Assembly: GCF_041260155.1 (NCBI RefSeq)
Contig: NC_091928.1
Span: 38,381,388-38,445,387 of the forward strand
Direction of reading: 5' to 3'
From: Ptychodera flava
Lineage: Eukaryota > Hemichordata > Enteropneusta > Ptychoderidae
Length of the DNA stretch: 64,000 bases
Shown: piece after piece, positions 23,101 to 63,255 of the stretch
Numbering within the stretch: position 1 is the first letter of the stretch
Layout of the letters: each line of letters opens with the position of its first letter
Notes under the pieces: model-generated
The model's input: the letters and a program-made list of their open reading frames with translations, nothing else
What the model was told of the DNA's origin: nothing
The model's database searches: none
Position numbers and translations under genes: made by a program

Positions 23101-26100
23101 AAGTAAGCAACAAGCATGTTGCTTGCACAAATATGAGACTTAAAGGCTTAGCCACAACCAATCTCAAAAGAGATGTAAAGCAGCATACACATACACAACA
23201 TGTAGACACAACTTTTCATAGTGACACAATGTGGCAATCTTCATGAACTTTTGCCAACAATTGTTTGCGTCATCATTCCAAAATCTGGGTCATTGACCAA
23301 CAAATGTGTACTCATACCAGTATACAAACACACAGATATACAAACAATGTATAAATATTATCATGGAGGTACATGTACATTAGTAATTGCAGTAGTAATA
23401 CAAAAACAGAATAATGTGCAAATATAGACTACAGACTTTTTTCATTACAATTTCCATCAAATCAATAATGAAGGTGGAATCATGCGGTACATGATTAGAA
23501 ATGACAGGCACCATAGAATTTACTTTGCATCCCATAGTCTTTCAACTGCCTACCTGTAATTGTGCATTTATCATTTCTATGATGCAATCATCAGCATCCG
23601 GTGGCTGCCAGTTTTTCCGCTGTGGTTTATATTTGTTCACAATTTCATAGCCAGGAAATTTGTCATATTCTGGCATCGGCTCCTGTTGAGTGTAATAGAA
23701 AGAAAATATAAATATCTTTGAACAAGAATACATACAAAAATACACATAATTAAAGCTGCAAGCAGCGTTGGCGGGGCCCAAGCGGATAACATGGTTGAAA
23801 GATCTTGTACTAATGATATTATGTGCAAAATTCGATCTTGCAAAAGTATGATTTTGAACATCATCTCATCATAGTTACTGTACGTGTCAGTGGGAATTGC
23901 ATGTTTTATGTAAAATCCAGTATGGCGGCCAAATATGAAGGGTGAAGCACTTGTGGTTGTGAATATTGACATATACTCATATTTAAGGGCAAAGGTCATC
24001 GAGGTCACGTGATATTTTGTCAAAAAAATTGTAATGCTAAGTTATCCCTATATACCAAAAATCAGACCTCTAGCTCTATTGGCTGGCTCAGAATTAGATA
24101 TGCGCATAACTAATGAGGTACAGGATGTGGTGTCATAAGGTCTCCCATCATACCAAATATGAAGGGTGTAGCACTTGTGGTTACTGAGTTATGGACATAT
24201 ACGTATATTCAAGGTCAAAGGTCATGAAGGTCATGTGACATTTTGTCAAAAAAATTGTATTGCTAAGTTATCCCTATATACCAAAAATCAGACCTTTAGC
24301 TCTATTGACTGGCTGAGAATTAGATATGCACATAATTAATGAGGTACAGGATGTGGTGTCATAAGGTCTCCCATCATACTAAATATGAAGGGTGTAGCAC
24401 TTGTGGTTACTGAGTTATGGACATATACTCATATTTAAGGTCAAAGGTCATTGAGGTCACATGACATTTTGTCAAAAAAATTGTATTGCTAAGTTATCCC
24501 TATATACCAAAAATCAGACCTCTAGCTCTATTAGCTGGCTCAGAATTAGATATGCGCATAATTAATGAGGTACAAGATGTAGTGTCATAAGGTCTCCCAT
24601 CATACCAAATATGAAGGCTGTAGCACTTGTGGTTACTTAGTTATGGACATATATGTATGTTTGAGGTCAAAGGTCATGGAAGTCATGTGACATTTTATTT
24701 AAAAAATTGTTTTCCGTGGTTATCCCTATATACCAAAAATCAGACCTCTGGCTCTATTGGATTGCCCAGAATTAGATATGACTCTTACATAGGCCAGAAT
24801 AAGCCATTGATATAGCTTAGCTGCAGAAGTATAGGGGAGGTCAAAGGTCATTGAAAAATCAGAAAAATAATACTTTAAAAATCTTCTTCTCAAAAACCGC
24901 CAGGTCAATTTCCTTGAAATTTCATATATAGCATCTAGGTAGTATTGCCTATAAAGTTTGCGAAAAGATTTTGGATCGGTCAAATTTTATGGAAATGGGA
25001 CAGTAAAAAACATTTTCATTTCAAAATTGTAGCCAGGTCACATGACTAATTAAAAATTCAAGGGTCAGGTGCACGAGTACTACCCATCACCTGTTACCCC
25101 TGCAAGTTTGAGAAGTTTTCGTTCAGCCGTTCGAGAGATCTAGGTGAGCAAAGAAATGGCAGAAGAAGAAGAAGAGGAAGTCAGTAGAACTTGAGCAATA
25201 ACAATAGGGTCCCAGCCGGTCGGCTTGGGCCCCTAAATATATCAACATATATTTAGAATCACTGTTTTCGTTTGTAAATCTCTTTTTTCCTTTCCACATT
25301 AAGTGAAACTCCTGAATTCTGTTTCACATTTGGCAAGATAAAACAAAGTAAAATTTCAAATGACATAGAGGGCGCACTCCAACATGATCCACTTACTGGT
25401 GTTGTAGGCAGGGACTCGGTGATCACAGAAGCAGATCCAAATCCAGACAACAGGGATGTAGATTTCTTTATTTTCTTCTTCTTCTTTGCTGGCGGTGGTT
25501 CAGGTGACCACTGTGTGTATAAAAATTGAAATTCAAAATGGGCTCACATGTTCAAGTTTTAATACACAGGTAAAAATCGGAATCACATAATACCTTTTGT
25601 TGTTAATCTTTAAAGGGTTTTGAAAAAATTGACCAGTTAAAATGCAATATTGGATCTACACAGAATAGCCTTCTGTTTAACTGTGCCCCCACCTGCCATC
25701 CCCTCTATTCCCTAACAAAGTAGTAACCTTTTTTAAGGTACTGTAGTATGCACCTTGAAAGTTGAACTTTGAATTGTAAAAGTTTGAGAGTCCAAATATG
25801 AGTCAATGAGGTGCATTCTAGCTTGCGGACATTGGCAATCTGTTTTTGACCTAATTTGTACCCATAACTGTGTACCAGTATAGTGGTCACGATTTCTGAC
25901 ATTGAAGTGAACAGATAAGCGGTATTTTTTATTTTACTGGTTTCATACATTTCGACATCAACACTGTTTTGACAATGACATAATCCTAATCTTTAGAAGA
26001 TTCATGATAACTAGGTATGTTTCAACACACTGGTCTTATCAAAAATATTCACTATTTAGTTCACAACCTGAAAAGAAAAGTAAGGCCATGCACCTCCAAA

Positions 26101-43224: not shown

Positions 43225-44908
43225 ATGAACCAAACTGAGGGAGTGCTGTGTATCTCAACAAAATGGGATGAAACAACCCAGCAGGTGATTGGTAATTTCC
43301 GTCAGACAATACCAAAACAGACACCTGATGAACCTTCCAATGTTTATTGCACTGTCCTTGATGTTGAACTGAGTCAAGAACAAAAGGAAGATGCAGCAAG
43401 ACATGGAGTAACTTTGATTCCAGCTACCAGACCGAAATGGTCTGATGCCGCTGAAGATCCACCTGCAATCTCCTGGCTTTTCAGTCATGTCAACTACTAT
43501 CCCAATCTGCAGACATTAGAACATATTACACACGTGGTTGCATTGTCAGCAAAAACTAAGACTGTCGCATCAGCAATCCATGACAATCTCTTCCCTCAGG
43601 CCAAACTTGATCTGGTGAATTCCAAACCTGCAGCATTATTTGTGGGCAATTCCTGGAATAAAGATGAGTTGGGTCTGACAGGATTTCACAGAACTCTTAT
43701 AAAAGATTTCTGTAAAAGAAAGGCCGAGGTAGGAGAAGATCTGAAAGCCTACTCCACTGTACTTGATGTCAAAATCAGTGATGACCAGAAGAAAGATGCC
43801 GAGAGCTGTGGGGTTACCTTGATTGAAGCACAAAGGAGGGAGGGGATTAAACCACAACATGACCCCCCAAGACCTGATTGGCTGTTGCTCCCTGAAAGTT
43901 ATTACCCTAACCTTGGAGAGATAGAAAATGTTCACTATGTGGTTGGGTATGCTCCAAAGACAGGACTTGCAGCAGCCTACATCCGAGAAAAACTTTTCCC
44001 TGGTGCAAAGCTAGTTCTCATCAACCATGCTTGTCCTGAATCAAACTGCCTGCAAGTTGAAGAATATAGAGAATATAAATTTGAAGAGAAGATGCTACAG
44101 ATGGCCAGGAAGGCAGACCTTCTGTTTTCCATAGGACCAGGGATATACGAGTACTTCCTGACTGCATATAAGGGTCACATTTATGGTAATGGTAAAGAAC
44201 TGTCAGAAATACCACATGAGGAGATTCTCCCATTGCCAAGCCGCTGTTCTTTAGGGAAAGAACCTGGAGAAGGGGAGATAAGACAGCACCAGATACTAAC
44301 ATGTGGTCAGATGGATACTAAACAAGCAGTAGACCGATGCAACATCATGGCAGCTTCAATAGGCAATGCAGCTAATAGGTGGAAAGCAACTCACACAACT
44401 GCCCCTAAATGGAAGATACAGGGAGTATCGAAACAAGCAGGTGAGATTGAAGTGAAGTTCCTAATTGGTAAGATGAAATGTCCTCATATACAGCCCATAC
44501 TATATCCAGGGCATTCAGCAAAATCCCTGCTAACATCACTACAGCAGTCTCACCTGTGCCTGCCTTCATCATGCTACACGGATTACAGTTTTTATGGATT
44601 AGAAGCAATGGTATCTGGTTTACCAACAGCAGTGGATGAATCTTCCCATCTAGGTTGCTTCATCAACAAATATTTGAAGGAGCATGCTGTCAAGTGTGTA
44701 CTACCAGCACAAGCTAGAAAGAAAGACTTGTCTGCTGCAATATTAAAATATCTAAACAATACAGATGTTGCTTTCAAGCATGCAAAGGACCTTGCAACAG
44801 ACTTGTTCAACAGTGAAGCTATGGCAAAACGATATGCCATCTTTACAACCCTATTAACTTCAACTGTCATGCAACAAACTGGAGATGAAGTAGGAAGGGA
44901 TATGACAG
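43225..44908 (+). CDS. Gene C exon 1: glycosyltransferase-like region with duplicated N-terminal part
   Basis: An uninterrupted 1.7-kb exon (561 codons plus one base; acceptor attctag, donor gtacaa). Residues about 6-132 and 137-268 are a tandem duplication: YCTVLDVELSQEQKEDAARH matches AYSTVLDVKISDDQKKDAES, and NYYPNL and LFPQAKLDLVN match SYYPNL and LFPGAKLVLIN. Residues about 420-475 resemble the nucleotide-sugar site of GT4 enzymes (LPSSCYTDYSFYGLEAMVSG then LP). In GT4 enzymes this carries E-x7-E. Here the second Glu is E460, but the first position is Thr452 with Asp453 beside it, so catalysis is doubtful. One large exon among many small ones suggests a retroposed or horizontally acquired module. 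Confidence 0.78.
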
Positions 44909-47900
44909 GTACAAAAAACATGTATTGAGCTTTTATTTTGTAATTTCTAAACATGTACATTTTGTCAAACAGGTTGAAATTGTGCGCACATATACAAGTT
45001 GTTGAAAAGGTCGAAATTATGCAAAATCCATTATGATTAATATATTGCCAGTATTATGTAGCTTATCAATAGCATCAAATTTACATGAAAACATATTAAA
45101 TAGAAAGCAATGCATTTTAGGCCAACTACTGTATACACATGGTAGCAGGCCGTAAAGAACAATTCTTGGTTTTAGAAACTCAGTGTTCTGTACACTACAA
45201 CATCACTTTGTAGTGGATAGATCATGAAGCTACAGTGCATTTACATTAGTTCATTTGGTGAAGAGAACTAAAAGTTTCTGTACAAAGCCATATAACATGA
45301 ATCTTATTTTCTACATTTCTATATGTACTTCCTCAGACACTGACCTATCTGTACAAATAGAATTGGATGCCATTGATAGTCATCACCAACATCTCAGAGA
45401 AACAGAAGAAGATGTTACAGCCCTTCTAGGAAAAGGAAGCAAAGAGCCTGAGCAGAAAGTGGTGAATCAACTGAAGGCCAAACTGACACATAGAGTAGAA
45501 GAAGTGGTGGCTGATGAAGACCGCCGTGAAGAGGTAATGAAAATTTGCAACAGGATACTTGAAGATATGGTGCCAGAACTACTGACAGTAAGATCCTTGG
45601 CAATCTTGCTGAGGTTCCTTACTCTTTATAATCTCTACAAGTTGAAGCAGACTTGTAGATCTGGAAGTTTGGCCAGAGCATTTGAACCACTTCTGATAAC
45701 AGATGAAATGAGAAAGATCGCTGCAGAAGCTGGGATCAAACTGCAGTTGAAAGCTACTTATGACACGAAAAAGTTTGAAGAAGTTGAAGTTTTCTTTATA
45801 AATCGTAAGTTGATGTTAAACCCTTTTGTAACAATGAATTGTGAATAGCCATAAAAGTATAATGCAGCCTCATGCAGTTCAACAGATATATCACACATTG
45901 CCTTTACAACCAGTTGCTGCTTTGACAATGAAGCAGAAGTTATAGTAATGTTGAAAAAGTGTTGTTTGTGTATGAAAATACTCATGATGGGACAAAACTT
46001 GGAGTGTTAGTCTCACAAATCTTCAAACCTGCAAATAAGGACTTGAGGTTTTTGATTCCATATTGTGTATAACTTATGGGATTGACAAATATATAAATAA
46101 CTACGGTAATGAATAGTTTATTTTTTATTTATTCATTTAATTATTTATTTGTTCACTCATATTTATACTGGTTTCAGCTCCCTTACTCATAAGGGCTGAT
46201 TTCTAAGGAGGACAAGTAGAGAATGAAAAAGTAAAAAACAATAATGTAAAATCTTAAAGATATACCAAAAGTGAACAAGTATATCAACACAACAAAATTG
46301 AAATTACAACTTGATATGAACAAATGAAAGAATTGCAAACGTATTAAAGTTACTGACAAGTGTACAACAGTGAATGATGTACATAATGAGACAAAACTAA
46401 GTTTTGTGTAAAGTCAAATTGGGTGAAATACTGGCCTCTATGCAGGTAAAGTATTAAGCTAGCAGGTTGAACAATATGAACAGAAATTACAGACTTAAGG
46501 TTATTTGTATGGAAGCAAAGTAAAGATATGGACATTTCTTATGAAATACCGGTGAGTTGATTTGTAACAGTGAGGAACAAGATCCCCTTTGCATGATTTC
46601 AAACAAGACATCGATCAGGAGCAACAACAGTTAGGTGCATATTTGACCAATTGTTGATGTACACTTTGTGAAAACTTAATTTGAAAAGATATGAGCAGCC
46701 CTAAAATGAAGCTATTAATCTGTATCATTATACATTATTTTGGCCCATCCAGAATAACATCACACTGGTCAAATGGGCTGAACTAAAGTGGTATACATGT
46801 GTACACAATACTTGTTCTGGTGTTGATCATTGATTTGATATCGCTTCACATTCCAAGGCGACAAGAACAATTATCGTGTAACCATATTATGTGATCGTTA
46901 CAAGTTAAAAATAAACTCCTTGGTATTAAAGGAAACGATCATTTCAGTAACCTAAATAAAAATGTTGACATCAGGTTGCAATCGAGTATACTTAAGAGAA
47001 TAAAATTAAGTTCCATCCAGAATAGCTGTGGGTATCGATGTTTTCCACCCTTTTCCACTGCACCTTGTTTTTCTTCCAGGTGATGGTGGAGGAATTCAAC
47101 CAGTGAAATTCTATGACAATATCATCGAAGAAGAAAATGATGAGAACCTAACTTTCGATAGACATGATACTGTTGTAACAGAAGATGGCAAGTTACAGCT
47201 AAAATCAAATGTGAGTAGAAAAAAGTAGCTGTCAAATTAGAATTCAAATACTTTCAAAATATTGTGGTCCAAAGGTGGACTTAGTTCAAGAAAGAGAAGT
47301 GTGAAGCAAGTGTTTTGGTAAAAATAGGTAGACTGGTGAATGTGGTTAATATTTCAAGGTTTTACTTTTCCTTCAAGGTAACAGAATCTGGTCAAACAGA
47401 CAGTCATCAGAAGGACCAAGGAAAAAGTAAGTACAAATTTAATATGTATATTAAGTAATTTGACCATGCAAGTAGCTTTTCTGTTACACTCAGTCATATG
47501 GATTGTAAAATATCCTTTTGCAGAATAAGGGATGTCTGGATCGCAATTCACATTTCCTTGGTAGGACCAATTTAAGGTATAATAATCTTTACAGCCCTGA
47601 TACGGGTTTTGCGGCTCGAGGTCGTACGGCGGAAGGGCCTGAGCGTGCGAGGGCCCATACGCCGTACGACCAAGGGCCACAAAAGCCGTATCAGGGCCGT
47701 AAAGGTTTTATCATATACATTATGGAATGATAAATAATAGTGTACATAATATTCAACATTGTTTAGGAGATAAAAATGCATGCGATATCAAAAATTCATC
47801 GCCATTTGTGTCAGTTTTTCATAAATACGATGGCCGCTTCCTGTCGCGGATCGACATACATAATGACATCATTTGTTTACCAGCAGAATTCTAGAACACG

Positions 47901-50900
47901 CAAAGCAACATCTGTACTATTAGGTGACCAACAGAGATCAAGGCTGAAATTGAGGTGTAAGAAGGACAAATCGCGATGTCAGTTTCTTGTAAGATATACT
48001 GTACAGGCACGCACTTAGTATACACAGGATTTCACTAGAATTTTAATAGAAATAAAAGCGGATGTCACCTGCACAGCTCCACTGTCGCCACGCGCAACTA
48101 TGATCTAAGCGAGCAGACGTTTTCCTAATCTAGCGCTGGCTTTGTGTGCGAACGGAACGTTTGCAGATAGCAACGTGTGTAGTAACCAGAATTGAGATAG
48201 TTCAGAAATGCACATGATTGCCCATATTTGGGCACTGGGCGGGGCGTGATAAGTAAAAAAAATGCACAGATCTGAGGGTGCTTTCTCCCATAGCTTTACA
48301 CAGGCACGTGTATTTAGAATATGATAATACTGGGTAGGGCTTAATATTCAATATCATCTGTTCCTTTTGTCTTATCAGTATTCCTGTCATTTGCCACATC
48401 AGACACTAAAGCTATTGTCATGTCTGATGGAGAGCGAATGTAAATCACCCAGAGATGACAAAAGAACAGCTATATTGGCCGTAGCATACACTCATAGAAG
48501 GAATCTGCTCTAATTCGCCAAAGGCATGAAATATGTGTCAATATTTTACGTAAACATGCCTGGAAAAACCCAGTAAAACTGCCACAGCAATATGTAAAAC
48601 ATCTCGTAACTACTATACATGTGATTGAACTCCAGGAGTATAAATGATCTTGCTGTTAATTGCCTTCAGTAATAAAAATTATAAAAACATCAAATAATTA
48701 CTCAATGTCAAGGCAATTTTAGAACCAGCAGAATAGTTATAGTGAGAAGCTAATCTCAGTCTTGACCCATTAATTCATGTTTAAATTGATTTCACACACT
48801 ACAGCCCACATGGCTCAGTGACATGCACCGGTATATATCATTCGTTACAAGTGAGTTTCCTTTCAAAAGCTTTTTTTTAATGTTATGGACTAAAATAAAG
48901 TGGTGTGCCTACGGTGAACAAAGACCGAAGTATTTATGATCTTACTGGTAGTGGTAATACTCATTCAGTCAAAAGATCCCCTCGCTGAGGCTATGCTTCA
49001 AAACCCTGCTAATCAGTTTAATCTCCAGATCATCATGGTATGGTGGAATGTCGATGCAATGTAGTTTTCATTAAGAGCCGCGACATGAAATAGTGATGTA
49101 TGTGTCCACAATTTAACATTATCTCACAGCACATTCAACATGTAGACTGTGCTGTGTGAGGAATTTTAGATATTTGCAAGGAACCTACTGATAGTTTACC
49201 TCACTTCCCCTTGGTACCAACATAACAGCACCGTATGCATGTAAATCATATCCTACCGATATAGTATACAGCCCTTTGCTCTGAGCATGCATGCACTGTC
49301 TCCAAGGGCAGTGATTGACTTAATTAGCTTTAAATGATCTACAAAGGGCTGCCTATGTTTGCTTTACATCATTTCAATCATACTTTGTGGACAAGGCACT
49401 TATTTTTACAGTGTAAGATCAGTGCTTACAGTGTAATGATCATCACACTAAATCAACTATATATCAATTTGGCTACTGTCAGAGAAGTTGATATTTTATG
49501 TTTGATACTACAGTGTAAAGCCAAATCCATATGCTATCAGCAGGCCCGCTGATATAGATGTCTTCTTTTCTTGAGTCTTAAAACAGACATATTGTCATTT
49601 GAAATTACACATAGCCATGCAAACTTCGTCTATTGGTAAGGTGCCCTAATCTCAACCCAAAATATGCTTATATGGTCCACTCCAATAATAGTCACAAATG
49701 CATCAAAACTAAATACATCTTACAATTCATAAATGACCATAAAGCAACACAGGTAGGTGTTAACCCTTTTCCTGCCAGACAGTATCACTTCCCCATCAGC
49801 CAAGTCAGTAAAAAGTGGTATTGAGCCAAAAAATGACGTATTTTCACCCACTTGGCTTGGTCTGTTATAGCATCTTTAGTCCCAAAAAATCAAGTTTACA
49901 GTATCTCTGTTTTCAACAGCCTTCAAATGTACAGTATTATTTTAAAATACATCATATGGAATATGTTGTGTTTCATTAATTTTAACCATCTTGACCTGGT
50001 GGTGAAATATGGACTTGGCAGGAAAAGGGTTAATGGATGCATATCTCTGAGTTACTGATATGACTGTTGACAATCATGTGACTACCTTTTTGCAGGAAAG
50101 GATCCATCAAAGTTGCTGCTACTTGAACTTGATGCTGAACGCGAAATCAAATCATCCACTGAGACCAATGTATGTTCACTGTTCAAAGCTGAGAAGTGTA
50201 TCAGATGGACAGGGAGGCAGTTTGATATGCTCCAAGCAGTGATGACAATGACAGACAGGGTTGAACATATCCTATCCTCTAGACAGGAAATCTTAGCACT
50301 ACTGGGTGTTACAAGGTATCTCTTGGCTGATTCAGAAGGTCTGTCATTCCTTGGTGAGTATTCTCAACCATTAATCACACCAATGTATGGCATGTACCGG
50401 TATATGAATACTTTTTAGGACATATCAGCTCTCAACAGATCTCAATGAAACATGTAAATAGCATCACAAAATCTTCCATGAGAGTGACAGGATTTTTATC
50501 AGCTTTATCTTTGAGCAAATTGACTAACTGTGCACAAGTTTTAAAGGAGAACAAAGCACGTACAAAACAGTCAATGTGAACAACCACTAATGTTGGAACA
50601 AGGGATTGCCTTTAAAAGATCTGATTATTTCATATACAATATCAGCATATCATCTGGTCATGAAAGTAAACATGCAGTACTTGAGAGATCTAAAATTTCC
50701 CATGTATTAACTGCAGACTTATTGCAACACTATTTAAATTTTCAATAGAAAATCTTGCCATGTCATAGTATGCTTTCCTACCAAATTGTTTTGGAAAGCT
50801 GTATTTACGTAGATGCAACTACAGTGTTGCTGTACAGAACTGTATGAAAACAAATAAAATCTGATTAGGAAATGTTGAGGCTACACTCAGTCTGAACAAA

Positions 50901-53900
50901 TAGTGCCGATATAAGGGATGGACCATTTGATTTCTGGGGATGGGGCTGGAGAACTTTCGAAGAAAATTTGGTTGCCAGCCATTTCTAGGGAAAAAATTGT
51001 CTACCCAGGGGACATGGAAAAAACAATTTCTTCAAGGCTGTACAAAAAACTGTTTCCAGTTACCCTGAGACAGTAGACTGTGTCTTCAGTAGTCTGAGGA
51101 GCTGCCACCTATGGTGTTTAATCATGGCGAAGATTTCATAGATTAGTTGATAATTCAGCTGCGAATTAATCTTCTGCATATGATTTGTGGCATGAAAGAG
51201 CAGAAACCTGAGTATGCATCGATGTACTGTAGTATTCTGTTTTCTTCCAAGTTGTTTACAAATGCATTCCTGCTAACTTTCTTAAACCAAAAAAGCTAAT
51301 TGTACTTCAGGAAAAGGTAAAAAGGGGACTGTGTCCCTTCAAAAACTTCCATTTAAAGGGACAGTCTCGAATCCATGGTTCTCACATAAGTTGTTGTTGG
51401 CATTGACTGTTTACATGTATGTGATTTTAGTCCTTTGTTAATTTGTGCACAGTTAGTCATTTTTGCCTAGAGATAAAGTAGATAAAAACCTGCAACATTA
51501 ACAATTTTCTACAAAGGTTTTATAAAATAGCAAATTTCTTGGAATGCTTGAAGGCGGAGCCTCCCTTTAAAAGGCTGCAAAAACGCAGACAGACTGCAAA
51601 GCGGTCAGCGCGAAGCTGCTGCTGATCAAACTCTGTGGTTATATTCAAATTCTGACATGACGGAAGACGATTTTTTAGGAAATTCGTGCGGTTGGTGGTC
51701 GGGAATCAATGCCCGTTGGCAATTTGAACCGACCGTCAATCAAACACTTGCATGCCTTGGTCCACACAGTTATAAAATGGTAATCAACTCCATAAGAAAC
51801 AAAAAGGAACATGTCACTAATTACAGTGACGGCACCAATGATTTTGACGATGAGATACAGCTGGATATTGATACACTACCGAATTAGGTTTGTCAGTTTG
51901 CTCTCAAATTTACCCTTTTAGTGGTCAACTTTTACAACTTTGCGCCAACATCAGACAGACTAAAACAGCAGGTGACGCAGCAAGATGTCTGTAAACTAAT
52001 TTACTATGTAGTATGTTTATATCTTTACAGCAGCTATCAGTTTCAATGGTGACACACACAGAGACTGGTTGCCAAGTTTTACAAGCAGTTCAAATTCACA
52101 GAGAGGTGGTAAAAGAACGACGTTACTGCAAATTTAGACTCAGAGGACAGTGTTCTTTGTAGTTGAATATCAATAAAGTTCATGACTTCAAAAATAATAG
52201 AGTGATGTGTAAAATGAACAAACTTTACTTTGGTTATCAACAAATGAATGACACCACATTTCTCAATGAGCTGACATTGGGGCCTACTTCAGTACGAAGT
52301 GAACTTGGGGGTTTCAGGCTATTTCGTGAACGTCATTTGTTTTCTATATTGACAAGATTGTAGCGACAAGCGATAAAAACATTGCAACATTGTAAGAGTG
52401 TTTATCATTTCTAGTTGATCCGACGTTTTTATTAAACACAAAAAAATCTAAAACTAACAACCCAAGGTCTTTGTGTCAGCAACTTTCTAGCCTAAAATAA
52501 CTCAGACAACAGTTTTCTATATTGACAAGATTGTATTGTATTGATATTCAACTACAAAGAACACTGTCCTCTTAGTCTAAATTTGCAGTAAGGGGTGGAC
52601 CATTTGATATCCTGGGGGGGGGGCTTGGAAGATTTGGGGGAAAAAAAAAGATGCCAGGTGGAGTTGCTCGAAAAAAAAAATCTGGCTTTAGGTGGCTGAT
52701 GGAAAAAAAATTATGGACCATTGCGACTCGGAAAAAAAAATCTTGGCAATTGTTCGATGCACACTGCAGCATCAATAAAAATCAAGCAGTAGCTCTAGAG
52801 TTTTATAAAGCATAAACCATCAAGCTTGAGGAACAATAACTGAATATGAACAATTGTACAGTATACATGACCTTCTGATTAGAGGAAGTATGCTGAAATT
52901 GAAATTGCTCACCAGTGTTTTCCAGAAATGTGTAAATCTGAATGTAAGGATTTTGTCAAAATACCACAAGAAGAGAGACAGCCTGCAAACATTTTACTAT
53001 TATCGTTTGCGCATAGAAAACTCATAACAATGAAAAAATGCGTAGAGACTCAATCCAATGCGTAATATTATTACGCATTGGATCGACTCTCTACACATTT
53101 TTTCATTGTTATGAGTTTTCTATAAACGCATGTTTTATTCGTAAATGCGAACACTGTTATAGTGAATTATCTTACCAATGTTTTTCTTAACAAAAGCGAA
53201 TGTGTTTTGATTAGAATTGAATGAGTTTGATGGTTTTGGGGAAACTACTATGTGGTAATGAAGAATGGGAAATGGGCAATGAAATGAGCAGACAGCAGGT
53301 GATTTAAGATTAAATGTTACATCTTCACTGCAAATAAAACCATAAGTGTGTCATAAATAATACAAACAAAACAAAATCATGTTTGTTTGTTTTGTTGTAT
53401 GTGAGCCACGTCTAAGACACACAACAAAAGTAGTGTTTCAGTCAGTAAATGTCACCTCAGATGCCACCAGAGAAAACCATTTCCACTCCAAAATTTCATT
53501 TTTCGCCTTTTGAGAGGGCGGACACCCCCTCTCGTGCTCCCCTCCTCGTTGGCTACGCTCACTCGCCGCTCAGTCGCTTCGCTCCCTCGCAGTCCACCCG
53601 TCTACTTTCTTAAATTACCCGGCTACTTTCAATGTAAGGACAACAATAACAAGTAAATGCCATAAATGTACATGATTTTACAAATATGTTTTAGTAAAGT
53701 GAATCAAAAATGTACATGTATTTACATAATTTCATTTAGTTTCTTGAATATAGTCTGCGTGGGACAGAACAGCATCTTTTTACTGGGTGTGAAAAACCAA
53801 GCAAAACAAATATTGCACTGAAATTTGGTAAAAAAAAAATATATCTCAAAGAAGGAAAGTGAAAAAAAAAAGTTGCCAGCATATGCCCTGTAGAAAAAAA

Positions 53901-56900
53901 ATAATCATGGTGAAGCACGTGGGAAAAAAAAAATAATGGCTCTCCACCAATCTTCCAAGCCCCCCCCCAGGATATCAAATGGTCCACCCTAACCTCGTTC
54001 TTTTACCACCTCTCAGTGAATTTGAACTGCTTGTAAAACTTGGCAACCAGTCTCTGTGTGTGTCACCATTGAAACTGATAGCTGCTGTAAAGATGTAAAC
54101 ATACTACATAGTAAATTAGTTTACAGACATCTTGCTGCGTCACCTGCTGTTTTAGTCTGTCTGATGTTGGCGCAAAGTTGTAAAAGTTGACCACTAAAAG
54201 GGTAAATTTGAGAGCAAACTGACAAACCTAATTCGGTAGTGTATCAATATCCAGCTGTATCTCATCGTCAAAATCATTGGTGCCGTCACTGTAACAATTA
54301 AGCAAAATAACCCTTAGACTACCAATACAGCTGAACTCGTTCTCAATAGACAAAAGTTGTCATACAGTTGTCTTCTGTTTTATTACAGAATTGGAGGAAC
54401 AACTCATTCAACATGGTGAACCAACTCAGCCAATCACAGCAGTCTATGAGACACTAAGTTTACAGGCTAGAAGTTTACTTCTACACAAACCCAGCAAAAA
54501 AAAACTAACAGATTCTGAAATCAGATACTTGGAATTGGCACAGTCTAAAGTTCATTCTTTACAAAGTCAACTTGACAAAGCTTTCACAGAAAAGAAACTT
54601 CTGGAAACCCAACTGGCTGAAGCAGTACAGGAAAAATCGCAGCAGGAAAGGCAGTATCAGAAGTACATGTACCGCTGCCATACTGCTGAAAAAGTAGTTT
54701 CTACCCAATTAAGTGATGTGCATAAATTTAAAGATAGAGTGGAAAAGTTAGAAATTAAGCTCAAAAAAAAAGACACAATAATAACAGAACTTAGGACAAG
54801 GCTATCACAATTATCTGATGCACAATATGATATTGAACTGCAGAAAAAAATTGCAAAGAGCCTTCAACTCGGTGGACATGTTAGCACAGAAATGAAAGAG
54901 AAGGGTGAGTCAACTAATAATATTGTATTCATGTGCGTAAGTGCTCATGCTTGGGCAAGCGGAACCCGTCCTCAACTTTCAATGAAAGTTTCCAATCAAG
55001 GTAATGTTCCGGCAAGAGCCCATCCCAATTTTTTCAATTTTATGATTGTTTGTTTTTTATTTTTTATTTTTTTATTTTTTTTTTTTTTTTTTTTTATTTT
55101 TTTTTTTATTTATGGGAGGGGGGAGGATTGTGAAACTAATAATTTAATAGAAGTCATTATGTTTGAGTCTCATTAGCTCAACATTCTTTTGGTTACATCA
55201 TGCAGATAAATTCTGATGGCCCTGCCTGAAAAGACCCATCGCTATGCAGCTGGAATGAAGCAAATTTTACAATATATTTTGAACAATGAAACAAGTAGTA
55301 TTTGAACATGTTGGGTCGAGTCTGAGGAAGTGCACTTGCCCAGTTTTTTAATAAAAATATATGCTCCATATCCCGGGTGTTTACGCAGATAAATATGGTA
55401 TTTGTAGTGAATGCAATACATACAACTTTAGTGACAATGCAGGGGGATTTTCATAATGTGCAAATGAATACAGCGACAAAGATAGCATTATGATAAGTAA
55501 ATTTTCAGACTTCTGTAATCTTTTAGTCAATTTAGGATTTTTTTGAAATTTTCTTGAGTCTTTAGTCATTCTTACAGGTGCCGCCAACTAAGCTGTTCGT
55601 GCAAAAAGGTGTTCGTGCGACGTTTTTCAGCGGGCGGGCAAATTTCAAAACTAATCAGCGGGCGGGGAGAAAAAATCTATATTTACTGTGGGCGGGGAAG
55701 AATTTTCACTATTTTCAGTGGGCGGGGAGAAAATTTTTGACAGTGGGCACCGGAAGATACGTAGAGGGAGGGGAAAGCGGCGTGGTTGACAGAACTTGAG
55801 GGGAGATTTAGCACCTAACTTAGAGGGGAGCAATGTTCCAAAGCTATACTGCCAGCTGCTCCTACGGTTTGCGTTGATCTGGGTTGCCTAGTAGACATCT
55901 AGTTGGCAATGGGAAATTTCAGTAGTGGGGAGAGGGCAGAGGGGAGCCTAAAATGTTGTGGGGAGTGGGGAGCGGGCAGACTATAGATACTGGAGGGCAG
56001 CGGGCATCAAAATTCAGTGGGAGGGCATATTTTCCGTGTATGCCAGTGGAGGGCAGTTACGAACAGCTCTACTTTCCCCTCCAAATTTTGGGTCAAGGTC
56101 AAAAATACGAAAAATCGGTATATCAGCCTTCAAAACATGTTTTGTGATGATTTTGCGAAATTCATGAAATTTACCAGTTGGCGGCACCTGTTCTTATACA
56201 GAGAACCCTCAGATGATCAACTTTAGAAACCCCTTTGTCTATACATACATATTAGACTATTATGGCTGTATTGAGAGATATCAACAGACGGTAAAGTTGA
56301 CTATCCCAGGTTGCCTAAATTAATTGAGGCTACAGTCACAGTATGTCAAATGATGATGTAAACACACAACTTGTTAAGCGGATGGATGCTCCTAAGGCAT
56401 AATACATATACTGACACATAATGCTCTGTTCTATATTAAAGAAACAAAAGCATTGCTTCAGTTTTTAAAAACTACGCTTGAATAAAGACAAAGACAATAA
56501 AATTTGCTCAGTAGTGACTTTCTTCCTTATAAACTCTTATTTCATTTTGCCCATTATGAGCACCTGAGGATTTGGTAAATTATGTCTTAACCCTTTAAGC
56601 GCTGGCATTTTCTCCCGCCAAAATTTTACCAATTTTTTATGGATTTTTTTGTAATTTTTGACCAAATGGACATCACATTGATTTGCTACTGTTTTTCCTC
56701 AAAATTTTGGGAAAATTTTAGAAAAATTAACTAGGGTATATTTTATAAAGGGGAAAAATAGACTTTGGCGCTCAAAGGGTTAATATTCTTTCTGAATGTA
56801 ATGAAATTATAGTAATTTCTGTTATTCATAATAGAGGTGACTGATACTACAGTGGATAACGTACATGCCAAGACAGAAATGATGCAGACTGAGAAAGAGA

Positions 56901-59900
56901 AACCACAAAAACTCGAGATGACTGTAAAAAAGGGAAATGAGATGGAGACTGCCACATCAATACATCAACGTGAGAAGACTGCCAGGGATGGAAGTGAGAT
57001 TGAGATAACCACACCAAGAAAACGCCAAAAGACTGGCAAGGATAGAAGTGAGATTGATTCAGCCACACCAACTCTACCTGATAGCAGGGAGGGATGTCAG
57101 ATGGAGACAATCACAGTCAGCACAGCACAAGAACATCATAAAGGTCAGTAGGTTTTCTGTTCATTCAGATGATGTACATGAAGTATTAATATTCCATTAA
57201 TACTGAAGTGCATAGCTATGGCCATGAATATTTAATTCATGAGATGAATATTGTTTGGAGCATTCAATAGAAATCAGTGCCATTATTTTATGGTATAACA
57301 TGATTTCTTAGTTACTTTCAACAAGGTGGATTTAGTCAAGAGCTGATAGTTGAAGAATAGATTAGAATAGAGTAGATTGTTCCATTATTACATTGGAAGT
57401 AGCAGGGATGACCTTAATGTAAGCTTTATTAAAAAACTGATTAATTTCATGGGCCTGCATGCAAAATGTTAATCTTGTGAGAGCAAATATTATATCCCAG
57501 TCTTTACTCATATGTGACAATCAAAGGCAGAGAAGGTAACTTGCTTACTGCTCAGTTGAAAAAGATTTCTTACTTATCACAGAGAAGGATTCAACATATT
57601 TTCAGCAACATCTTCAAACGTCTTACTGCAGGTAAAACCAGATCTGATGGCAGTATGGTGACTCCTGGTAGTACTGCTACACAGGAACAAACAAATTTTT
57701 GTGCAGCTCACGGTGAAGTGTTGCCTATTGGTTCAGTGCCCTCTGAGATGTCTGGTGGTATGGTGAAACTTTCTAGTGCAGCGGAGCAAAGGGTTGAAGA
57801 TAGTGACAATAGTGAAGAGATGACTGGATCAGTGCACTCTGAGATGATACCTGGTGGTGAAGAGGAGCAAAGAGTTGCAGATAGTGAAGACAGTGAAGAG
57901 ATGACTGGGTCAGTGTCCTCTGAGATGTCTGGTGATATGATGATACCTGGTAGTGAAGAGGAGCAAAGCTTTTCAGATAGTGATGACAGTGAAGAGATGA
58001 TGAGTAGTTCAGAGTCCTCTGAGGAGATATCTGATAGCACAACAACAGCTAAAAGTTCAAGTGTTTCTGGTTAGTATTAACTCTATTAAATTAAAGTAAA
58101 TTGGCTTTAAAAGCAACATCTGATTTACACATTGCAATTGTTTTATCAACAAGTAATTTTTTCAGTATACACTAGCTTTAAGAAACATCAATCTTATTCC
58201 ATTTTTTTTCCTTTTTCTTCATTAACATCTTACGGCTGGGTACATAAGTTGATCATGAAAGTTTCTCTCATACTGAACATAGTATTGCCAAAGCAAGCGT
58301 ATAGATCTACCAGAGCGTGTTGTTTTGGTATGACTAATTATGGGGAATGATAAAGTAATGAATGATATTGTGTGTATGCATGCAGTACCAATATTTTGCC
58401 CCTTGAATGACTAGGCAGCCATAGTAGAGATTCTTTCGATACAACCTGTATACGATATTGGCAGTTGGCAGCCATGGAATCAGGAAGGGAGTTGTATTCC
58501 GCACATAGCAAATCACCCATATTTAAACTTGTATTACTTTCTAAGATCCTGTGCTATGAGACAATATAATACAAATGTTAACTGTTATTGAGGGCAAAAG
58601 CATATGTCTGTACCCCGATGGAATGTGAGTCACAACCCCTCCACCTCCCAACAGGCTGTTTTAGCTGGGGGTGACTCAAAGGCCCAAAGGGATAAAGACA
58701 TGCTGTTGCCCTCATGGCCAGTCAATATGTGTTCTATAACACACCTCACCCGCATCATACATAATAATGTGGCAACCACAAATCTTTTACATTCAGTTCT
58801 CGACCATATTGTTCCACTAGGCCATAGACGACATTTTTGTTTACATTCCAGTTTGCACATGTGCAAATGTTGCTTTTAAAGGCAACGGGCATCATCTTTT
58901 GGAACACATGCCTGGCAGGCAAGAATTCCAACAAATGATGCTTAATGATGTCGTTTACATGGATCAGCACAAAAAGAATACATTCTGCGCCCAAATACGA
59001 ATTAGAACATAGACTGGAGGTGAGGTGTGTTACAATAAAACATAGTACCATTCAGTTGATCATTGTTCACCAAAGATGTTTCATAGTTGAAAATGTATGT
59101 GGCACTCATTGAAACTGAAAGCATGACTCAGAAACTTTATGAGCTCAAAAATGTACCACAGTATATTTAGGACCATGTCATGATCTGATTTCACATCAGC
59201 AAATTAAATGATGGAAATACTAAAATCATAACTGATGTAAAATGTTCTTGAAGGGTCGTTTTCACTCCACATATGATTTTTTAGAGCCTAAGAGTGCAGA
59301 AAAGAAGCACATTATGGGAGCACAGATAGGGGTGCAGACTATCAATTTTTGACCGCTCAAAAAGCTCATATATCAGCTTTATAGTTCTGTTGTACAAATA
59401 ATGGTTTGTCTCAGAGAAAGTCTTCATATGAATGGAATTTCCCGTTCAGGCAATGTGGACCAAAATTTACTGTACAGCTGTTTGCCATCTATTCACAAGG
59501 TTTAGCTGAATCAGTTTCTCTCAGTTGCCAAATAAATTGTGTATTATCCTCAGATGCCCGGAATATGAACTACATTTCAGCTTTCGTAAGTTTGTGTGAC
59601 TTTGATCTTACAGGGAATTGGTCAAAGAAGATCCTCTATGGAAATGAAAGCCAATGGCCTGGAAAGCGGTTCAATTATGCAACAGGCTTGACCTTCCACA
59701 ATGATAAACTTTTGGTGTGCGACACAGGCAACAATATTGTAAGAATACTGAATCAAGATTACACATGTCACAAGGTGTTGGGCAGTTTCAAAGGCCAATT
59801 TGCCTACCCATTTAAGCCTCAGTCCATAGCAGTCTCTCAGAACAGCCTCTACTTCATCCTTGATGACATCAATGTCCAAGTTGTTGTTTGTGATCAAAAT

Positions 59901-60434
59901 AATAAAGTTGTCAAGTTGATTAATCTACCTAAAGACTCACATCCTACTTGCATAGCTCTTGTTAAGACATTTCTCATAGTTACAGAGGTCAGCAATAACC
60001 GCATCCTCAAGTACAGCCAGGATGGAGATTACATAGCAGAGATTGGTGGTGATACTGACAGCAAACAACAATTCTGGCATCCAAGCTCTGTTGCTGTCAA
60101 CAGTAAGGATGTCATCTTGGTGTCTGACTGTAACAATGACTGCATCAAGTGTTTTGATTTAGAGTTAAATGGTCTGTTCCAATACGGAGAGGCTGGTGAA
60201 GGCAATGGTCAGACGCACCTCGTCTATGGCATTGCAGTGGATGGCAATGATAATGTGTATGTTTGTGACTGGCGTAATGATAGGATTGTTAAATGGAGTA
60301 GTGATGGAAAATGGATATGTAATCTTTTTCAACGTGAACGGATTTACCCAGAATACATTGCTGTGACCACCGCTGGTGATGTAATTTCTGTTGTTGAATC
60401 TAACAGTGGTACAATTGTAATATTTTCTAGGTAG
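43225..60434 (+). CDS. Gene C: GT4-like / TRADD-N-like / coiled-coil / NHL protein (spliced, about 1557 aa)
   Basis: Coding exons: 43225-44908, 45337-45804, 47080-47210, 47378-47426, 50096-50353, 54389-54904, 56835-57143, 57632-58069, 59614-60434 (4674 nt). Every junction has GT/AG sites and matching phase. Order of parts: divergent GT-B fold glycosyltransferase-like region (residues about 1-550, one exon), TRADD-N-like domain (about 590-717), acidic linker, helical exon (778-863), coiled coil (about 900-1030), charged repeats (about 1045-1130), Ser/Glu repeats (about 1150-1284) and a six-bladed NHL propeller (about 1290-1557). No signal peptide or membrane segment, so cytosolic. TRADD-N domains are signalling adaptors and NHL propellers bind RNA, protein or glycans in TRIM-NHL proteins; a signalling or innate-immune role is inference. 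Both ends are clear, but the middle linkage rests on splice phase alone. Confidence 0.68.
45337..45804 (+). CDS. Gene C exon 2: TRADD-N-like domain
   Basis: Acceptor ttcctcag, donor gtaagt; residues about 562-717. ILLRFLTLYNLYKLKQTCRS, then GSLARAFEPLLITDEM and GIKLQLKATYDTKKFEE, line up with the N-terminal domain of TRADD (I-V-Q-L-R-F ... Y-R-E-G-A-L-R-A-A-L ... V-P-L-Q-L-E-L), an adaptor fold also found in invertebrate NLR-like proteins. A Glu-rich helix precedes it. The comparison is from memory, not a search. Confidence 0.62.
47080..47210 (+). CDS. Gene C exon 3, acidic linker
   Basis: Acceptor ttcttccag, donor gtgagt. Reads DGGGIQPVKFYDNIIEEEND onward; phase fits both neighbours. Confidence 0.6.
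47378..47426 (+). CDS. Gene C exon 4, 49-bp linker exon
   Basis: Acceptor ccttcaag, donor gtaagt. Reads VTESGQTDSHQKDQGK plus one base. Small and low complexity, supported by phase only. Confidence 0.5.
47576..47717. repeat. Foldback palindrome in a gene C intron
   Basis: Arms of about 57 bp: left tttacagccctgatacgg then ggtcgtacggcg, right cgccgtacgacc then ccgtatcagggccgtaaa. Ends ggtataataatc and gttttatcatatac also pair. CpG-rich, unlike the intron around it. Confidence 0.85.
47718..50095. other. Gene C intron
   Basis: No exon recognised. A short frame at 47776-48018 has some CpG-rich sequence but no family match. Confidence 0.4.
50096..50353 (+). CDS. Gene C exon 5, helical segment
   Basis: Acceptor tttttgcag, donor gtgagt. 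Reads KLLLLELDAEREIKSSTETN and later FDMLQAVMTMTDRVEHILSS, predicted helical. No family assigned. Confidence 0.6.
50918..51060. mobile_element. Partial copy of the Harbinger-like MITE end
   Basis: Begins gggatggaccatttgatttc followed by tggggatggggctgg, a diverged copy of the terminus of the element at 52592-53989. No matching right end was seen nearby. Confidence 0.4.
51657..51887 (+). other. Unassigned 76-codon ORF in an intron
   Basis: ATG with a CpG-rich leader (gcgcgaagctgctgctgatc) and an acidic C-terminus (DFDDEIQLDIDTLPN). The 3' quarter lies within the inverted-repeat arm that starts at 51821. No family recognised; it may be a captured first exon or part of a transposon. Confidence 0.25.
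52592..53989. mobile_element. Harbinger-like MITE with TAA target duplication
   Basis: Ends ggggtggaccatttgatatc and gatatcaaatggtccaccc are inverted, followed inward by G-runs and A-rich stretches on both sides. It is flanked by TAA on each side inside the right arm of the inverted repeat. A TAA duplication with GG..CC termini is typical of PIF/Harbinger. No transposase is encoded. Confidence 0.7.
53008..53130. repeat. Near-perfect palindrome inside the Harbinger-like MITE
   Basis: Arms of about 60 bp (agaaaactcataacaatgaa, then aatccaatgcgtaat, and their inverse) meeting at taatattatta with almost no loop. Confidence 0.9.
54389..54904 (+). CDS. Gene C exon 6, coiled coil
   Basis: Acceptor tattacag, donor gtgagt. 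Heptad-rich: AQSKVHSLQSQLDKAFTEKK, LLETQLAEAVQEKSQQE and VEKLEIKLKKKDTIITELRT. A long coiled coil, likely for oligomerisation. Confidence 0.72.
55040..55120. repeat. Poly-T tract
   Basis: About 70 bases of nearly pure T with a few A, followed by gggagggggga. Confidence 0.85.
55575..56190. mobile_element. 616-bp MITE with 6-bp target duplication
   Basis: Terminal inverted repeats caggtgccgccaact and agttggcggcacctg, flanked on both sides by TTCTTA (55569-55574 and 56191-56196). The interior holds degenerate GC-rich repeats based on cagcgggcggggagaaaa. Non-coding; in a gene C intron. Superfamily not assigned. Confidence 0.8.
56835..57143 (+). CDS. Gene C exon 7, charged 16-18-residue repeats
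   Basis: Acceptor cataatag, donor gtcagt. Four loose repeats built on GNEMETAT, GSEIEITT, RSEIDSAT and CQMETITV, spaced by Lys/Arg-rich stretches (RKRQKTGKD). Probably disordered. Confidence 0.6.
57632..58069 (+). CDS. Gene C exon 8, acidic Ser/Glu tandem repeats
   Basis: Acceptor ttactgcag, donor gttagt. About three repeats of roughly 30-35 residues (SEMSGG, EEQRVADSEDSEEMTGSV, SEMSGDMMIPGSEEEQSFSD). Repeats at DNA level suggest recent slippage growth. Ser-Asp/Glu sites resemble casein kinase 2 targets. Confidence 0.65.
59614..60434 (+). CDS. Gene C last exon: six-bladed NHL beta-propeller
   Basis: Reads GNWSKKILYGN and then six NHL-type blades, e.g. YATGLTFHNDKLLVCDTGNN, HPSSVAVNSKDVILVSDCNN and VYGIAVDGNDNVYVCDWRND; stop TAG at 60432. 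The acceptor could be at 59613 (atcttacag) or 59553 (atcctcag); both keep the frame after the previous exon. AATAAA at 60438 is only 4 bases past the stop; other hexamers lie near 61491 and 61690. NHL propellers typically bind RNA, proteins or glycans. Confidence 0.82.
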
Positions 60435-60437
60435 ACA

Positions 60438-60443
60438 ATAAAC
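60438..60443 (+). terminator. AATAAA close to the gene C stop
   Basis: A polyadenylation hexamer 4 bases after the stop codon. If used, the 3' UTR would be unusually short. Confidence 0.35.
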
Positions 60444-62190
60444 CAACATGTTATGAATGTCTTTATTTCATCAAAATACTGAAATTTGTTCAAAATTTTT
60501 GGTACACATATTTTAATCATCACTTAATTGTAATAAGCTAATGAATCACACTGTTGATATATACATCAACTTCCAAAGCAACAGTTAGTTATGTTTTCAC
60601 ATTTCATGATCTCATTTGGTAAATCACATAATCAGCCAGGATGTTTTTTCTGTTCAACACCTTTTGAAGTTTTGGTTTCAGCATTCAGTAAAACCAAAAT
60701 ACAAAGGCCGTACGAATTTCTCACTTCATCCTGGAACAGCTCTTGGCAAAAACGAATGTACTGGCTCTGTTTGAAAAATGACATGTAGATCTAAGAAACT
60801 AAAAATGTTCTGGGGGAAGTGAATAAATCAGCATTCACATCCAAAGTGGAAAATTTCAGTAGCCTGACATAGTTGCAGCTCTCTGGCATCTATTGATAAC
60901 CACCCAAAACACAATATCTTCAGTTGTTTTCATGTATCCTTAAATTGTGATAAAGTGTCTTTTCTGGACTACAGCATGATTATCCTAAGTCTGTTTAGAT
61001 AAGAATATTGAGAAAGGAAAAGGGTACATGAACATCTTGAAGAAAGGGCCTTCATAATTTGATGAGAAAGGTGGAGAAAAATTTATAGGCAGGTGATATG
61101 ACAAAAATCAACACAATTATTGCCTACACACCTGGGAGATCATTTATCTCTATGCTTCAGCAAATGTAATTATCAACATTTGGAGTCCCTCCACCACTTT
61201 AATATCCCTTATATTTGGAACGTTTTAGCATAATTTTTGTCATATTCTCTACAAAATGTTATGTTTTCTATTAAAGTGTATATGTCTCCTGCGTATTCTA
61301 TTAAACTGGTAAAAGCAATGGGAAGCTTAATTTGGAAGATAACGCAAACAATATCTCAGTAGGCAACTCGGTGTTTAGCCACCGATTAATATACTGCTTT
61401 ATGTAAAGGTTTGATATGAGCCTACTATGTGTAATTAAGTAAAACCTAGCTGGAAATCTAACTATTCCATATTCAGTGACTATTACTGCAATAAATTTTA
61501 TGTTTTAGGTATTAATATATTTTAAGCACAATAGTTTTGGCAGTGTGTACATTTTAATGGCAATACGAGTTTTCAATTTGTTCAGTGTTGTCATACGTGT
61601 TCAACTTCATTGAGGAGTAGAAATACCAATGCTTACAAAGCGTATATTGTTTAATAGATCTATTATATAATATTATAATATTATATAAGAGCCTGAAAGA
61701 ATAAAATCGGATGACATTTTTTAAAGAACATTTCATGTAGAAGATTTCCAAATTTTAGATAGAAAAAATATAATTGTTTTTGCAGTTTTAAGAGTTAAAT
61801 TCTTTTGAATAACTTCATTGTGAATTTAGGGCTTGTCGGTATTAGATTTCCATGTTAGATGCTTGTTACATGTTACATGTGTCACTTTATTGTATTCAAA
61901 TTAAATAATTATATGTGTATAGTACAACAGTCTGGACGCAGCTTATATTGATAAGATTGTACATGTACATAGGAATGAAAATTTTACTACTGCAGCAGAC
62001 TTAATCAAGTGAATGAGATATTGTTCTGACATTTGCTGATAAAGTTGATACAGTGGGAGAAATTGTTAATGTAAGCACTCATTTTACAGTTACACAAAAA
62101 AGCATGGACTTCACAAGCATTGTACTTCTTGAGAAGACTCTTATTTTTGTGCTAAATGTAGTAAGTTATTTTGGAAGAGGAAAACAATCA
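60444..62190. other. Intergenic, AT-rich
   Basis: No gene or repeat family recognised. A short inverted AT motif (attatataatattataatat) occurs near 61662. Confidence 0.45.
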
Positions 62191-62199
62191 GAAAGATGA

Positions 62200-62820
<621 letters not shown>

Positions 62821-62824
<4 letters not shown>

Positions 62825-63255
62825 CATACACATACATGCATGCACATGGGTGTTTCTTTGGCTACAAATGCCATCCAATTATCCTCAAGCATCCTTTCTA
62901 TTTCTCAGATTAAGTCATATTACCTGTGTGAGGCATCCAATTCATGTCTAGGCAACTGCTGGTGTTGGTGGATTTCTAGATCACCAATAGTGTTTGCATA
63001 AACCACTGGAGTTAGTGTCCACGAATAGCAGACCCTCTATCACAGTTTATAAACTATCTACTGTTGATTGGCCAATCAGAGTGCTCATTCAGGGTGTTTT
63101 ATTTACTCGTAAAGCCTTGGTCACCAAATTCCAGAAACGAATGACACGCCGTAGTAAAGTACTGTCCAATCAAAACTGAACATGTCATATTCTGTAGACA
63201 TCTGGTACGTTTTAATATTCAAATTTGGTAACACAGCGGAAACCAGCGGCAACAC
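62821..63255. other. Intergenic
   Basis: Nothing recognised. Confidence 0.4.

Follow-up and report, generated by a model that had tools for sequence, protein, structure and literature searches.

Kaur et al. (2021, PMC8195603), in the parts of the paper covered here, describe proteins of cephalochordates, hemichordates, and cnidarians in which a glycosyltransferase domain of the GT4 type precedes a TRADD-N domain that is followed by leucine-rich repeats (LRRs). In the same parts, the GT4 domain is proposed as an effector of bacterial origin and propellers as possible sensors, TRADD-N domains are tied via a low-complexity linker to β-propellers, and the DEDD2 clade is also fused, among others, to TRIM ubiquitin-ligase domains. 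Here, we analyzed a 64,000-nucleotide stretch of the Ptychodera flava genome (NC_091928.1, forward-strand positions 38,381,388 to 38,445,387; hereafter the window), in which nine plus-strand exons between positions 43225 and 60434 join into one open frame. The predicted protein combines a partly duplicated GT4 module with a degenerate active site, a putative TRADD-N-like segment, a coiled coil, and a C-terminal NHL β-propeller. On balance, we are inclined to regard it as an intracellular innate-immune sensor or adaptor of the GT4–TRADD-N class, which is known from marine invertebrates, and in which the GT4 module docks rather than catalyzes.

Comparison with described proteins

Since most of this combination was published in 2021 (PMC8195603), the protein looks like a variant of a known immune-type class rather than a new kind. 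It has in common with the DEDD2-clade GT4–TRADD-N–LRR proteins an N-terminal GT4 domain, then a (possible) TRADD-N domain and a C-terminal repeat-type module. It differs from them, as they are described in the parts covered, in having an NHL propeller where they have LRRs, in the duplication of the N-terminal half of GT4, in the degenerate GT4 site, and in a TRADD-N region unseen by Pfam. The NCOA6-clade TRADD-N–β-propeller proteins of Branchiostoma have a death effector domain at the beginning and WD40, not NHL, at the end, and the passage of PMC8195603 on this clade mentions no GT4. NHL does not occur in the main text of that paper, whose architecture tables may already list GT4–TRADD-N–NHL, and the TRIM fusion of the DEDD2 clade may carry an NHL end. 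The parts covered contain neither this exact order of modules, nor a half-domain duplication, nor a degenerate GT4. Among the papers listed in literature searches on the GT4/TRADD-N/NHL combination, none beyond PMC8195603 deals with it. An earlier sequence-only reading of the window had known of no described animal protein with this order; that statement holds at most for the complete order, partial orders being in print (PMC8195603). Relative to the published parts covered, the NHL end module is new, the GT4 half-domain duplication is unusual, and the enzyme is probably dead.

In the TRIM-NHL proteins (TRIM2, TRIM3, TRIM71, and Drosophila Thin and Brat), a coiled coil stands before the C-terminal NHL propeller, as it does here. 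Unlike these proteins, the predicted protein has GT4 at its N-terminus, and RING and B-box are absent among the nine Pfam matches obtained up to E = 5 with the whole protein.

Gene structure

The nine exons join in phase to give one stop-free frame of 1557 codons. GT...AG borders are found at all eight introns, seven of which are phase 1. The nine-exon frame of about 1557 codons that the sequence-only reading had put forward is thus open when spliced, and the possibility of a pseudogene was dropped because the frame stays open over this length. No module has a second copy in the window, except for the half-domain repeat inside exon 1. We infer from the sequence that all nine exons belong to one transcript, the joint between exons 1 and 2 being the least secure part of this model.

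Exon 1 (43225..44908, aa 1–561) holds the whole glycosyltransferase-like module and is supported by its open frame, its splice signals, and Pfam PF20706. Exon 2 (45337..45804, aa 562–717) encodes a helical stretch and the TRADD-N-like C-terminal part, which is placed by a gapless TRADD match at aa 647–682. Splice signals and codon score define exon 3 (47080..47210), a linker, exon 4 (47378..47426), a 49-base linker exon and the least certain of the nine, and exon 5 (50096..50353), which has no Pfam match and is of no known family. The coiled coil is encoded by exon 6 (54389..54904), where a heptad score is accompanied by weak Pfam coiled-coil matches under the cut-off. Exon 7 (56835..57143) is a linker identified by a repeat search and codon score, exon 8 (57632..58069) is an acidic linker rich in Ser, Glu, and Asp, and exon 9 (59614..60434) contains the NHL β-propeller and the stop codon, just past which an AATAAA motif lies at 60437, one of 33 AATAAA or ATTAAA motifs in the region 43225–61500.

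Codon scores were trained on exons 1, 2, 6, and 9 and compared with those of length-matched open windows from introns. The scores of exons 3, 5, and 7 are reached by none of 1141, 43, and 10 such windows, respectively, which backs these exons. The score of exon 4 is equaled by 53 of 4805 windows, making this exon less certain. The introns offer no open window as long as exon 8; the codon score of this exon is 0.14, slightly lower than that of another frame (0.16), which contains 28 stops.

Intron 5 contains an inverted repeat (51821–52125 and 53990–54294) with 305-nt arms that are 99% complementary and 1864 nt apart. Further inverted pairs are nested inside it, one of which (52593–52622 and 53960–53989) is exact, and a palindrome with 55-nt arms, 95% complementary around a 1-nt spacer, lies at 53013–53123. 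The inverted repeat looks like a young insertion of the fold-back type.

The GT4 module

The whole protein matches the GT4-conflict family (Pfam PF20706) with E = 1.3e-35 and 123.6 bits (cut-off, 26). The match extends over aa 139–527 (43639..44805, plus strand), which align with profile positions 2–372 of 385, and includes both Rossmann halves, so that the glycosyltransferase-like module noticed earlier is borne out by the profile search. The stretch of aa 136–561 by itself gives E = 5.4e-32. No other glycosyltransferase family is found among the Pfam matches of the whole protein up to E = 5. It should be noted that the PF20706 model is broad, matching all 14 control genomes at E ≤ 0.001 and 2 of them at E ≤ 1e-20; the match therefore proves GT4, and the lack of a better-matching glycosyltransferase family is no more than a pointer to the conflict branch. 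Against PDB chains, the module gives nothing below E = 0.26. A single-protein query, which would find close relatives only, detected no relative of the module in genome contigs or viral contigs. In plasmids, five Rhizobium records matched it with 23% identity at E = 0.3.

The complete domain is preceded by an extra first copy of its N-terminal half. Residues 1–132 (43225..43620, plus strand) are 37% identical to aa 131–267 over 137 aligned columns, which is an internal duplication. A 142-aa piece with this extra half matches PF20706 at E = 1.9e-4, under the curated cut-off.

The active site was compared with four bacterial sequences, namely L001 from a Rhizobium plasmid record and L003–L005, which are 56–78% identical to L001. 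L001 as the query led to nine loci, of which L003–L006 were aligned first; the partial L006 was then dropped from the active-site comparison, and the near copy L002 and the short partial matches L007–L010 were omitted. Four of six active-site positions are changed in the P. flava domain, each of them being conserved in all four bacterial relatives. GG is replaced with LG at aa 149–150, GHDHITG with GYAPKTG at aa 241–247, and RMED with QMD at aa 362–364 (R to Q at 362), whereas EX7E has become TX7E at aa 452–460 with loss of the first Glu (Thr at aa 452). The domain retains the other two positions, namely the second Glu of EX7E at aa 460 and the Lys that follows RMED. We take these motif residues, changed and kept, to be the sugar-donor-binding residues of GT4 enzymes. 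The glycine loop is missing from the extra N-terminal half as well. Over the whole domain, 63 of the 181 columns invariant in the four bacterial sequences are retained. The changes at four of the six positions suggest that the GT4 module is probably a pseudo-enzyme. For the same reason, the dead-enzyme scaffold offered by the sequence-only reading is a better fit than its other suggestion, a protein acting through glycosylation.

The TRADD-N-like segment in exon 2

The segment of exon 2 that resembles TRADD-N, with a supposed strand–helix arrangement, lies at aa 647–717 (45591..45803, plus strand); its end at aa 717 is the end of the exon and not a measured domain border. In a gapless comparison, a 36-residue segment of TRADD that is recognized by the TRADD-like_N profile was slid along all 1557 residues. 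The best place is aa 647–682 in exon 2 with a score of 23, the next best place scoring 6; when exon 2 is shuffled, 23 is reached in 4 of 5000 cases. The TRADD segment was picked after the resemblance had been noticed by eye, so that the shuffle count flatters the match. A gapless scan of 18,602 windows in six frames found two that reach 23, namely the exon 2 place and one in a short open frame at 5885. According to the parts of PMC8195603 covered, the β2–β3 turn of TRADD-N carries a conserved uS pair, in which a tiny residue precedes serine. Residues 647–648 just before the supposed strand are Arg-Ser; the serine is present and the tiny residue is missing.

Several observations weigh against a TRADD-N domain here. 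Neither TRADD_N (PF09034) nor TRADD-like_N (PF20694) is matched by the full-length protein, by exon 2 alone, or by pieces of exon 2, while a human TRADD segment matches both families in the same Pfam library. The sole Pfam match of exon 2 is DNA_pol_B_thumb (E = 0.097, below the cut-off), and exon 2 matches no death-fold family in Pfam. The four sequences found among PDB chains with exon 2 up to E = 10 do not include TRADD. The Smith–Waterman alignment of exon 2 with TRADD is at chance, since 651 of 2000 shuffles are as good with BLOSUM62; over the three matrices used for gapped local alignment the counts are 651, 365, and 139. Single-sequence hhalign places exon 2 13th of 82, and the open frame at 5885, which is unrelated and 57 residues long, outscores exon 2 in the gapless scan (30 versus 23). 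Single-sequence AlphaFold models have low confidence (mean pLDDT of 50.7 for exon 2 and 37.7 for exon 1) and are uninformative; that of exon 2 is mostly helical, an RRM-like fold having been the feature sought. The TRADD-N claim of the sequence-only reading therefore fails in the profile search and keeps a weak gapless match to the TRADD core. We regard the identity of exon 2 as TRADD-N as plausible and weakly supported.

Exon 2 has no relative in viral contigs (single-protein query, close relatives only), and a 109-residue piece of it has none in plasmids. TRADD-N members were found neither in 5 genomes, nor in 398 and 392 genomes of two phyla, nor in seven cyanobacterial plasmids. These negatives say nothing about absence because the 14 control genomes gave no match either, or matches below the cut-off only at laxer limits (5/14 and 2/14).

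The coiled coil, linkers, and NHL propeller

A home-made heptad score of exon 6 is reached by 1 of 200 shuffles, whereas those of exons 2, 5, and 7 are reached by 38, 81, and 126 of 200, respectively, indicating a coiled coil in exon 6. The linker in exon 7 contains three copies of an 18–19-residue repeat (family D3). In exon 8, an 81-base tandem repeat runs in frame (family D2) and gives a repeat of at least 27 residues, and Asp, Glu, Ser, and Thr make up 53% of the exon. Exon 9 matches NHL in Pfam with E = 7.4e-12 in three stretches. In the PDB, it matches Drosophila Thin (6d69_A, E = 4.4e-37) and is also near TRIM2, TRIM3, and TRIM71. Both the coiled coil and the NHL propeller of the sequence-only reading are upheld by these results. 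In NCBIfam, exon 9 matches the NHL-type scyF at E = 1.3e-23, below the cut-off, and exons 1 and 2 have weak matches only. PADLOC gave no match, Rfam gave none at gathering scores, and the NHL exon has no relative in viral contigs (single-protein query, close relatives only).

Alternative explanations

The joint between exons 1 and 2 is the point at which a single transcript may be doubted. The locus could instead comprise a stand-alone GT4-like gene (exon 1) and a separate coiled-coil/NHL gene (exons 2–9), or give alternative transcripts; we consider this improbable. The donor of exon 1 at 44908 is the weakest of the eight (0.3 bits versus 1.6–6.1), and the exon 1 frame continues past it to its own in-frame stop, which ends at 44928. 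Because of this stop and an ATTAAA motif downstream at 45095, a transcript holding the glycosyltransferase alone is possible. The motif itself is weak evidence because AATAAA or ATTAAA occurs 33 times within 43225–61500. On the other side of the intron, the frame of exon 2 stays open upstream as far as 45228 and includes an ATG there. Exons 2, 5, 6, 7, and 8 begin and end in phase 1, so that matching phases arise easily and say little for linkage. However, exon 2 is preceded by a pyrimidine-rich AG acceptor (judged by eye), which needs an upstream phase 1 donor. Of the six GTs in 44800–44935, two are in the proper phase, and that at 44908 (0.3) beats that at 44812 (−1.8), while an equal-scoring GT at 44889 would have exon 2 read in a frame interrupted by 17 stops. 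The published proteins, too, carry TRADD-N after GT4 (PMC8195603, parts covered).

Two further alternatives accept the joined gene and question what its modules do. There may be no TRADD-N domain at all, GT4 and NHL being linked by ordinary helices in an NHL scaffold unconnected with death signaling. This explanation, which we hold unlikely, agrees with the absence of profile matches of exon 2 to TRADD_N, TRADD-like_N, and death-fold families and with its mostly helical, low-confidence model. However, the gapless match to the TRADD core falls exactly in exon 2, and this exon directly follows GT4, as TRADD-N does in the published proteins (PMC8195603, parts covered). Alternatively, GT4 may be active despite its altered site and serve as the effector, glycosylating an invader or host target once the NHL end is engaged. 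The proposal of GT4 domains as effectors in GT4–TRADD-N proteins, in the same parts of PMC8195603, favors such an enzyme, as do the two retained motif positions. Moreover, GacB homologues are reported to have GX7E instead of EX7E, and the motif may be involved in activity (PMC6802508, in the part covered), so that loss of the first Glu alone is not proof of inactivity. An active GT4 nevertheless appears rather doubtful to us, considering the four changed positions and the glycine loop missing from the extra N-terminal half as well.

Proposed function

For an innate-immune sensor or adaptor with a docking GT4 module, the following scheme can be drawn. The C-terminal NHL propeller, carried on the flexible acidic linker, would bind an invader-derived or stress ligand, either protein or RNA. 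The coiled coil would bring copies of the protein together as a dimer or oligomer, and this clustering might expose the TRADD-N-like domain. Once exposed, the domain could recruit an E3 ligase with a MATH domain or a partner of the death-fold type. The GT4 module, with its doubled acceptor-side half and damaged donor site, would be a binding or regulatory module and most likely performs no sugar transfer.

A more far-reaching and tentative idea, which we think has less chance of being correct than that general scheme, is that the protein is an immune receptor with a pseudo-glycosyltransferase. In this view, a GT4 conflict enzyme would have lost its donor site and duplicated its acceptor-side half, thereby being made a non-catalytic sensing or docking module. 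Joined via TRADD-N and the coiled coil to NHL, it would form a two-ended sensor for death-domain-type signaling.

The predicted protein adds a propeller-ended, probably non-catalytic form to the GT4–TRADD-N proteins known from sequence (PMC8195603, parts covered). If the enzyme is dead, this would argue that a captured bacterial GT4 fold in animals can act by binding and not by sugar transfer.

Other features of the window

Two open frames with ankyrin repeats lie on the minus strand at 5264–5608 and 8844–9197 (Pfam Ank, E = 1.7e-8; Ank_2, E = 2.9e-6) and are probably exons of a neighboring gene on the opposite strand. A tandem array at 23929–24780 consists of 3.8 copies of a 226-base unit with 90% matches. 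Near each other, at 62299–62427 and 62623–62828, are two long runs of the AT dinucleotide.

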